From assembly GCA_012932865.1 (NCBI GenBank), contig SAXG01000071.1:62001-126000 (forward strand): a DNA stretch of 64,000 nucleotides, given 5' to 3'. Shown here piece after piece: positions 42,261 through 61,994 of the stretch; the first letter of the stretch is position 1; each line of letters starts with the position of its first letter. The translations under genes and the position numbers were made by a program. The notes beneath the pieces were generated by a model. The model saw only the letters and a program-made list of their open reading frames with translations. It searched no databases and was not told the origin of the DNA. Origin of the DNA: Amylostereum areolatum (Eukaryota; Basidiomycota; Agaricomycetes; Russulales; Stereaceae).

Positions 42261-42915
42261 TTAGCCGGCTACTGCGACATCCACCAAACGGAAACATAGA
42301 TAATCGGCCATCGACCCATCACTGGCAAGCACGGACGTATCCTGGTTCTCTCGTGAATCAAGAACCCGCTCGATGTACTCGGCAGCTCCAGATAGATGGG
42401 TCACCATGGCGCAAGAGGCATGTATGGCGACGAAGTGTGGGTCGGGCAGAGGGCGTTCAACAGGGTTATCCGTTTCCCATTGGACGAACGGGGGAACTCC
42501 AGCCATATTGTCCGTACGTCTTAACGAGGGATGCTGGTGAACTTTGTATTTCCCGGGGACATCCTGGTGCGACGGCCAAATAGGTCGATGCCTATCTCAT
42601 CGACAAAGACAGTAAGGACGCACCTCTGGCGTGAACCACAACTTGAGCCGATCGAACGGGCCGCGAACCTTTGGATGTAACGTGAGAAGGTTTGACAGAC
42701 GGTAAAAATCATTTCTGTTGGGTTCATCAACCAGGAGGTTGACACCAGCCAGCCTTTCTATAATCGTCCAGCAAGCAGATTCATAGTCCGACTGTAAGTG
42801 CGTGAGATAGATAAGACCGTGTGTCACAGAAAAAGACGTACATCAAAATCGTCATCCCTCTGCCTTTCGCTTATGATCTTGCGAGGAAAGATATGTGCTG
42901 CTTCCGTGTGCATGG
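42261..42915 (-). pseudogene. HNH-nuclease gene, 3' part (split by an 18.4-kb insertion)
   Basis: C-terminal exons of a basidiomycete HNH-domain protein: complement(42261..42563, 42624..42791) plus the downstream part of a third exon, 42842..42915. The third exon encodes the EAAHIFPRKIISE segment with the first HNH histidine. The next has SACWTIIERLAG and YRLSNLLTLHPKVRGPFDRLKLWF (Asn and His of the ββα-metal motif). The last has PLPDPHFVAIHASCAMVTHLSGAAEYIERVL, typical of the family end, and stops at 42261-42263. The upstream part of the gene lies at 61329-61994, beyond the inserted element. Exon phases match across the break, so the gene was intact when interrupted. The family is multi-copy in Agaricomycetes; the substrate is unknown. 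Confidence 0.85.
42906..42915 (+). repeat. Target-site duplication, left copy
   Basis: GTGTGCATGG, identical to 61329-61338. Up to ten bases match. The true duplication may be 8 bp (GTGTGCAT), with the last two bases shared by chance with the element end. Confidence 0.75.
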
Positions 42916-42938
42916 GAACGTGGGATTTTCAGCCCAAT
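42914..42938 (+). repeat. Left terminal inverted repeat of the 18.4-kb element
   Basis: It shares GAAC, GATTTT and AGCCCAAT, at identical spacing, with the reverse complement of 61304-61328. Most of the mismatches are G/A transitions. Confidence 0.7.
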
Positions 42939-42940
42939 CG

Positions 42941-43124
42941 ACTACATAGTCGCGTAGCCGTAGCCGTGTAGCCGGCCACGTGGATATACGATGAGGGCAT
43001 GGGTGTCCTTGTAGCCAGTCTTTGTGTTTTTGCTGGCTACATAGCCACGTAGCCACGTAGCCACAAAGTCGTGTAGTCGTCCAAAAAAACTTTGTGCGTA
43101 GCCATAGCCACATAGCCATAGCCG
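42941..43124 (+). repeat. Left subterminal GTAGCC repeat cluster
   Basis: About a dozen GTAGCC or ATAGCC units, often as CACGTAGCC or CATAGCC, interspersed with two unique stretches. Arrays like this near transposon ends commonly bind the transposase. The same word occurs in inverted orientation at the right end. Confidence 0.75.
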
Positions 43125-43689
43125 AAAGATGTTTTATAAACCATGCATGTTGATGATGTAGCACTGTGAATGCCCCCGCCGCTGGCAGCAACGTCTTGCG
43201 GTTGGTGTGGCTGTCCACTTGATCACTTCTTGTCCGTTAACGTTGGTTCGTCGACTCCGTCGAACCGTGGCCGTGTTCAGCGTCGGGTGCGTACTGACTT
43301 ACACAGGCCGTTCCCTCGTTTTAGACTTCAATCTGACTTTCTCTATTTCAGTGTTCGAACTCGTCGTGCCCAGTGACAATCTTCTACTCTGAGCAAGTCG
43401 ACTCCGAAAACTCCAACACTGCTTTCTCCAATGCGCAAGGCATTGTCTCTCTCATCAACAAGGACCAATCCACGTCCACATTCCTTACTTTCTTCCCAGA
43501 CCATCCTCCGCTTCCTCGACCTCTCTACCCTTCTCACCGACCTCGGTGCTTTCGTCGACACTCAGCGAGTGAACCTTCTGTTTCCCAAACACATTCGGGG
43601 GTAGGAGCATCTACAGTGTTATCTGGTGAGTACGCTATATATCCATGCTTTGCCTACCTTTACTGAAATATAGGTTACTAGCACGACAT
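43125..43689. other. Leader region of the Cys-cluster gene
   Basis: No gene was established. A plus frame at 43373-43666 (YSEQVDSENSNTAFSNAQGIVSLINKDQ...) has protein-like composition and might be a 5' exon of the next gene, but I could not place a convincing junction. Confidence 0.35.
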
Positions 43690-61062: not shown

Positions 61063-61120
61063 CGATACGGGGTAGAATACGGTGGGGACGTCGACGACCC
61101 GGGGATGTTATATACATGTC

Positions 61121-61309
61121 GATGGCTACGAGGCTACAATGAGTTTGGAGGAAAGAATGAGAAAAGACCACAATGTTTTTTTGAACTTGTTTTGGACAAT
61201 AAAATATTTGACAAAAACCCTTTTCTGGCTACGTAGTCGTTTGAGAAAAAGAAATTTGGCTACGTAGTCGTCGCCAAAACTGGGCTACATGGCTACATGG
61301 CCCATTGGG
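61121..61309 (+). repeat. Right subterminal GGCTAC repeat cluster
   Basis: GGCTAC units, several as GGCTACGTAGTCG, in the orientation opposite to the GTAGCC cluster at the left end. Confidence 0.7.
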
Positions 61310-61328
61310 CTCAAAATCTTATGTTCTG
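61304..61328 (-). repeat. Right terminal inverted repeat of the 18.4-kb element
   Basis: The reverse complement shares GAAC, GATTTT and AGCCCAAT with 42914-42938. Confidence 0.7.
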
Positions 61329-61338
61329 GTGTGCATGG
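61329..61338 (+). repeat. Target-site duplication, right copy
   Basis: GTGTGCATGG, as at 42906-42915. Confidence 0.75.
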
Positions 61339-61994
61339 TCTCTATTGTATCCGTTCCAAGCTTTCCAGCGGCTTCAAGCTCCTGACAAATGGCGACGTTC
61401 GCATCAAGATAGGTGCTGTCGTAAATTCTCGTCACCATACACTTAAAGCCATCTCTGACGAGAGCCTGTCAAGGTACTTCATGTAAGGAAATAAGTAGAC
61501 AGGAGGAAGTTGTGGCTAACCTCCTCCTTCTCGTGACTATGGCCAAGCATGCGCTCTTCGCGGAGCCAGCACGTCAAGTCCCCTTGGTCTTTGAATGATG
61601 GTCGCGAAAGAGGATTGGAAGATGGCGGGTTATAGCCACGTTCAGACTTCATGTTATAAACTGCATGGTACTATCAGCAGCGCCCCGGCGAGGAGAAGGG
61701 AAAGGACAACAAACGGCAGCAGATAAAATGCTCGAAATATGTCTGTCCAAGCTCAAGCAAGGCATCATCGTCAGGGCATGCCAGAATGTCTTTTGTAAGG
61801 ACCGAACGGCCATCTTCGGAGGGAGGGTGAAGTAGCAGATATCCGAGAACGCGAGCACGAAGCTTAGGAGTCAACTTTTCCTCCGTTGAGCTCGGAAGAA
61901 CATGTTCGTGTTCGAATTCGACGCAGCATTTGTATGCTTTAGCACCAGACAGAGGGAAGTCATCAGGAAGCTGGGTAGGAAGTGGATCACCCAT
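61329..61994 (-). pseudogene. HNH-nuclease gene, 5' part (split by an 18.4-kb insertion)
   Basis: Exons complement(61715..61994, 61521..61660) and the upstream part of exon 3, 61329..61465. The start is MGDPLPTQLPDDFPLSGAKAYK at 61994. The N-terminal domain (ARVLGYLLLHPPSEDGR, DDALLELGQTYFEHFI) and the ALVRDGFKCMVT segment before the HNH core are characteristic of the basidiomycete HNH-domain family. The frame continues at 42915 beyond the inserted element; the whole gene would be five exons and about 363 residues (280, 140, 201, 168 and 303 nt). The promoter side (62,000-62,280) is present, so a truncated N-terminal product reading into the element could still be made. Confidence 0.83.

Follow-up and report, generated by a model that had tools for sequence, protein, structure and literature searches.

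What has pushed the two halves of a single gene 18.4 kb apart on the same strand of a fungal chromosome? The gene, of HNH type and read from the minus strand, lies in a 64,000 nt stretch of the Amylostereum areolatum genome (contig SAXG01000071.1, positions 62,001 to 126,000; hereafter, the window), where it breaks off in its third exon and resumes on the far side of an 18,415 bp insertion (Table 1). We consider it very probable that this insertion is a CxC5/CxC6-family DNA transposon of the cut-and-paste type, one which would be moved by its own DDE transposase, with a partner protein encoded by a second gene (here called gene B), and which would pick up host DNA.

An HNH-type gene interrupted in exon 3

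When one copy of the short duplication flanking the insertion is counted, the joined gene has five exons, the third of 201 nt, with GT..AG boundaries at all four introns, and encodes 363 amino acids without an internal stop. The original prediction had pointed to the in-phase 201 nt exon and to a frame 'exactly preserved'; the exon stands, but the preserved frame is no extra evidence, since taking out an insert along with one duplication necessarily gives back the original exon. That the halves are one gene, as had been claimed, follows from comparison with intact relatives: 48 of the 50 homologues that the joined protein retrieved, most of the named ones from Agaricomycetes, align across the junction (P0045 and P0048 are gapped there; P-numbers denote homologous proteins and, below, C-numbers denote sequences of the home genome, G000), and the break falls at their conserved T-x-x-A-H-I motif. 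In a Pfam profile scan, the piece after the break gave a weak HNH_2 match (E 0.0072, short of the cut-off) and the two pieces before it gave none. A search for an empty HNH allele in the home genome, with only the best candidates scored, found none; the other matches to the HNH protein in that search were distant (32-48% identity), with the exception of a 56-residue piece on C129 that is 76% identical and carries two stops. The empty state of the site would then be the one seen in homologues of other fungi. The insertion is real, and there is good support for the proposal of one transposition event into a gene that was then intact.

The ends and the duplication can be read directly from the DNA. 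Inward from its right end the insert runs CAGAACATAAGATTTTGAGCCC, and a relative on C95 starts with identical letters after an unrelated flank. The original prediction had recommended looking for further copies of the ends; a second element family of the genome starts CAGAAAGTTAAACATTTGAACGG, with 14 exact copies of this 5' end, and finishes CCGTTCAAAATCTTTACGCTCCC, with 11 exact 3' ends. The other end of related elements is CTCCC, with a perfect 8 bp duplication immediately after it in seven of the ten copies that were read at both flanks (C34, C94, C100, C161, C180, C112 and C126). The C112 and C126 copies have a related 5' end; the other five duplications come from one family, of which eight copies were read. 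Three copies (C122, C27 and C50) have no 8 bp duplication, and the 3' flank of the C27 copy (CTAATAGT) recurs as the 5' flank of that on C166, which would fit either recombination between two copies or misassembly. Because the CTCCC family ends directly precede 8 bp duplications, we read the window's target site duplication (TSD) as the 8 bp GTGTGCAT and the adjoining end as GTTCCC; the 10 bp direct repeat originally reported at the break is too long, the extra GG after GTGTGCAT being the element's own end. The two ends are indeed inverted repeats, albeit imperfect ones: 19 of their first 25 positions agree, a level reached by 9 of 200,000 random 25-mer pairs drawn from the element. By their end coordinates, the elements measure 10.4 kb (C34), 13.1 kb (C112) and 13.9 kb (C126). 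A sequence at C34:459283 that resembles a terminal inverted repeat (TIR) was judged a chance match and not the other terminus of that copy; the true end lies elsewhere.

Table 1. Coordinates of the interrupted gene, the inserted element and its parts (window positions).
Feature	Position	Strand	Details
HNH gene, 5' part	61337..61994	-	exons 61994-61715, 61660-61521, exon 3 from 61465 to break
HNH gene, 3' part	42261..42905	-	rest of exon 3 42905-42842, exons 42791-42624, 42563-42261
Whole inserted element, 18,415 bp	42914..61328	- (by transposase gene)	CAGAAC at 61328, GTTCCC at 42914; ends from C95 relative and family ends
Left copy of 8 bp TSD, GTGTGCAT	42906..42913
Right copy of 8 bp TSD, GTGTGCAT	61329..61336
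Imperfect TIR, gene B side	42914..42938	+	19/25 positions match opposite end
Imperfect TIR, transposase side	61304..61328	-	starts CAGAAC; same start in C95 relative (L028:1668)
CxC5/CxC6 (probable transposase) gene, six exons, 665 aa	58801..61062	-	exons 61062-60711, 60654-60478, 60428-60251, 60195-59882, 59825-59278, 59229-58801; PF18718 and PF18721 matches; 34 homologues
Gene B, near end opposite transposase, inward-facing	43645..45895	+	exons 43645-45322, 45372-45895; 5' start uncertain
Nested Ty3/gypsy-type LTR retrotransposon with chromodomain	47743..55920	+	LTRs 47743-48199, 55464-55920
Further insertion inside LTR element	53564..54208	+	first 108 bp = LTR start; last 151 bp inverted at 62350-62500
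Decayed coding-like fragment	55927..58661	+	88% copy C150:721342-724041; 80-88% pieces in C95, C112, C126 elements
Second multi-copy piece, GC-rich	46129..46918		84-85% copies at C5 and C109
Third multi-copy piece	46927..47737		71% copy at C1:158529-159448

A probable transposase and a convergent second gene

The CxC5/CxC6 gene, whose splice sites were picked by hand, has an intact reading frame, and its product has at least 34 homologues (among the 7,997 candidates scored, those with the most words in common with it), of which 32 have CxC5 and all 34 have CxC6. To say that the element is marked by this protein, as originally put, is correct in that the gene is present and intact, but it undersells the protein, which is probably the element's transposase because its predicted fold resembles those of DDE transposases and integrases (VIA-align matches it to ISCth4 and integrases) and because D/D/E residues are conserved among its homologues. 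Foldseek gave no significant match to the predicted structure, and a search of a viral fold library gave none with an E-value of 0.001 or less.

The product of gene B has a cysteine cluster followed by a tail rich in serine, proline and acidic residues. Searching the genome with the frame at 43645-45360 returned 22 matches, merged by hand into 16 loci including that of the window, and the pairing with the CxC5/CxC6 gene is a regular one: 15 of the 16 lie 7.2-17.1 kb from a CxC6 locus, all of them convergent with it and on its downstream side, the sole exception being the locus on C119. At 24 of the 39 merged CxC6 loci, no gene B was detected. A homologue search, in which the 7,990 candidates with the most words in common were scored, found only one protein. 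An annotated protein of Amylostereum chailletii is 97% identical to gene B over 45% of the query and agrees with the intron at 45323-45371. A single-sequence structure model had a predicted local distance difference test score of 35.8 and was useless. The cysteine cluster (residues 32-109 of the searched frame) has a likeness to DUF702 that falls below the cut-off (E 0.0069) and is a lead only; DUF702 we take to be a plant SHI-type zinc finger.

In the mechanism that we propose, an element of this family would have inserted into exon 3 of the HNH-type gene by cut-and-paste transposition. The N-terminal helical and CxC5 region of the transposase would probably bind the element ends, and its RNase H-like core, in which the CxC6 zinc cluster is predicted to be inserted after the first catalytic strand, would cut at the CAGAA...(C/T)TCCC ends with their short imperfect inverted repeats; joining of the cut ends to staggered target DNA would leave the 8 bp duplications. 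We infer that the protein encoded by the inward-facing gene B binds DNA as a partner of the transposase or regulates it. Host-gene DNA would be acquired into the space between the two genes directly as DNA, with its introns, and would decay while the elements carry it.

A composite interior with multi-copy cargo

The 18.4 kb insert had been described as one large transposon, and the insertion is of that length, but it is composite: approximately 8.2 kb of it is a nested long terminal repeat (LTR) retrotransposon. This element has matches to gag, protease, reverse transcriptase, RNase H, integrase (the core match being below its cut-off) and chromodomain, and its two LTRs differ at 5 of 458 aligned positions, all by transitions. 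Its flanks, CGAGT and TTCAA, form no matching duplication, which leaves a simple gypsy insertion with its own TSD unsupported; a deletion produced when two LTR elements recombined is likely, if unproved. In the C95 relative, approximately 3.3 kb lies between two cargo parts where the window holds the LTR element, which may have entered before or after the jump into the HNH gene. A perfect inverted copy of 151 bp links 54058-54208, inside the LTR element, with 62350-62500, just outside the transposon, the same small repeat being present in both places.

The cargo proper is multi-copy. Its decayed coding-like fragment at 55927-58661 is GC-rich and, relative to C150, has a 5 bp insertion and a repeat expansion; on C150, an open frame runs on past the point where the homology stops, and the C150 copy in turn departs from the window copy by a frame change. 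The source of this fragment may have been C150 itself or a relative of it. Two elements of another family, on C172 and C101, differ in their 5' flanks but are 99.4% identical over 5.7 kb; both contain a cyclin coding piece (Cyclin_N, E 2.5e-40) that, read by eye, appears to retain introns and to have a frame shift. A 94% copy of this piece lies inside an open frame of 559 residues on C127, a copy with stops lies near a CxC6 gene on C105, and a 36-residue cyclin piece lies near one on C26. The cyclin pieces point to capture at the DNA level, as judged from C172 and C101 reads that stop short of far ends and TSDs. Pack-type elements of plants are DNA transposons that picked up and multiplied host genes. 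Compared with the Pack-type pattern of host-gene DNA with its introns kept between TSD-flanked ends, the cyclin piece apparently has the introns, and relatives of the 55927-58661 fragment, of putative host-gene origin, occur in the TSD-bearing elements of C112 and C126. An enolase-like coding piece with apparently broken frames lies a few kilobases from a CxC6 gene (L042:7036-7866, on C124); with no second copy or far end to place it inside an element, it was not counted as cargo.

Alternative readings and known transposon groups

In an element mobile as described, the host-like DNA could be host sequence or other repeats that arrived through nested insertion, through exchange among elements or through an error of assembly, instead of captured cargo. 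On C150 and C126, the match to the window fragment ends at one and the same point, which would be unexpected if each had been captured separately from a C150-like source, and of the three copies with mismatched flanks among the ten, one has its 8-mer in common with another copy. This origin nevertheless seems improbable to us, as four elements (C152, C95, C112 and C126) hold the same cargo, oriented alike with respect to CxC6, and C112 and C126 among them have perfect TSDs, while the cyclin piece recurs both in two elements that are 99% identical but differently flanked at the 5' side and, shortened or decayed, near CxC6 genes on C105 and C26. Rather less probable is that the CxC5/CxC6 protein is merely an accessory DNA-binding protein for an element moved in trans by classical KDZ transposases, even though Pfam describes CxC5 and CxC6 as 'associated with KDZ transposases', the genome has at least 155 KDZ profile matches, and KDZ elements likewise give 8 bp TSDs (PMC12810828; PMC12730594). 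A conserved D/D/E and a DDE-like predicted fold belong to the protein itself, no KDZ domain was found among the scanned open reading frames of the window element, and, with 105 of the KDZ loci considered, 37 of the 39 CxC6 loci have no KDZ locus within 25 kb (the others are on C107, at 8.3 kb, and C120, at 19.3 kb).

The neighbourhood result agrees with what was seen in a sporeless Pleurotus ostreatus, in which a 6,792 bp CxC5/CxC6 insert breaks poMSH4 and in which the authors, finding no KDZ transposon at the expected distance, suspected a Copia retrotransposon (PMC7641404; the account is repeated, with citation, in PMC12568894). KDZ genes are evidently not the usual neighbours of CxC5/CxC6 genes, and our data suggest another reason for it, namely that the CxC5/CxC6 protein is itself the transposase. 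A retrotransposon-linked rearrangement of the kind suspected in Pleurotus, where CxC5/CxC6 regions were often seen beside Copia elements (PMC7641404), is very improbable as the origin of the window insert, despite the LTR retrotransposon inside it: the outer ends are CAGAA...TCCC with an 8 bp TSD, common to other elements, and not LTRs; the 6.9 kb read of the 10.4 kb C34 copy has no match to the window's LTR element; and that element is gypsy-type, not Copia. The poMSH4 insert resembles the window element in that its CxC5/CxC6 open reading frame is of similar size (660/739 aa) and in that it interrupts a gene, and the main text of that report contains neither 'target site duplication' nor 'inverted repeat' (PMC7641404).

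The preferred reading is a CxC5/CxC6 cut-and-paste element. As to its kin, none of the 34 homologues matches the KDZ transposase domain PF18758 at E up to 1, and a profile alignment to two KDZ sequences of the genome was not significant, its best piece lying around YD-C and the following H. The combination of a CxC zinc module with a D/D/E RNase H-like core is nonetheless that of KDZ transposases, and 8 bp TSDs with TIRs, imperfect here, are as in Zisupton/Dileera-type elements. KDZ1-KDZ3 of Cryptococcus (approximately 9-11 kb, with TSDs of 4-8 bp for KDZ2/3) share TIRs, 8 bp TSDs and a transposase with a zinc-chelating CxC module, but theirs is CxC1 with a recognizable KDZ core and TIRs of 139-241 bp (PMC12810828), whereas the window element has CxC5 and CxC6, the latter within the catalytic domain, a ~25 bp imperfect TIR and a second, convergent gene. 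Kyakuja, an Agaricomycete DNA transposon with a TET/JBP gene, is similar in having an extra gene and one end starting CA, but differs in its 7 bp TSDs, CA..TG ends and lack of TIRs (PMC12730594). For TET/JBP dioxygenases there was no Pfam match among the scanned reading frames, which were part of the total and were not subjected to a dedicated profile search. The list of 11 Pfam families matched by the 34 homologues includes no hAT family, although the 8 bp TSD is common to both groups, and no Starship tyrosine-recombinase captain turned up in general Pfam scans, none of them aimed at captains. A hAT element of Pseudocercospora that captured histone H3 is a DNA transposon that multiplied a host gene (PMC6710886), but belongs to another superfamily, and here several different sequences are spread across one transposon group. 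The element is a little-described DNA transposon, KDZ-like but without a KDZ profile match, and with unusual cargo.

Calling large cargo-bearing CxC5/CxC6 transposons poorly described, as the original prediction did, is fair, with the proviso that the poMSH4 insert (PMC7641404) and Cryptococcus KDZ elements with CxC1 and 8 bp TSDs (PMC12810828) are in print. Among the papers listed by the literature searches, CxC5/CxC6 was seen treated as belonging to a mobile element only by PMC7641404 and the citing PMC12568894; in its passages on KDZ lineages and TSDs, PMC12730594 makes no mention of CxC, PMC12062965 deals with CxC7 of Zisupton in fishes, and the founding KDZ description may already have given CxC5/CxC6 proteins a catalytic core. 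It is tempting to speculate, and we do so tentatively, that CxC5/CxC6 elements form a separate autonomous DDE superfamily of Agaricomycetes, with a zinc-interrupted core, a second protein of their own and a habit of capturing host genes, and that they, not Copia, explain the MSH4 disruption and the dozens of loci per mushroom genome (44 to nearly 60 CxC5/CxC6 regions; PMC7641404). Elements of this kind are numerous in the present genome and were formerly ascribed to another class of mobile DNA; one such insert disrupted a meiosis gene in a cultivated mushroom, and that it was a DNA transposon went unrecognized. With exact ends, an 8 bp TSD, a second gene and full-length family copies to go by, computational annotation and activity testing are now possible, and if the cargo is captured host DNA, these elements would also provide a means by which pieces of basidiomycete genes are copied and moved.

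Elsewhere in the window no tRNA genes were found. A GC-rich block spans positions 16000-42000 (0.57-0.65 per 2 kb interval, against ~0.5 directly on either side), and an Est1-like telomerase-activating protein gene, with EST1 and EST1_DNA_bind matches, lies at 8452-10468 and is an ordinary host gene.
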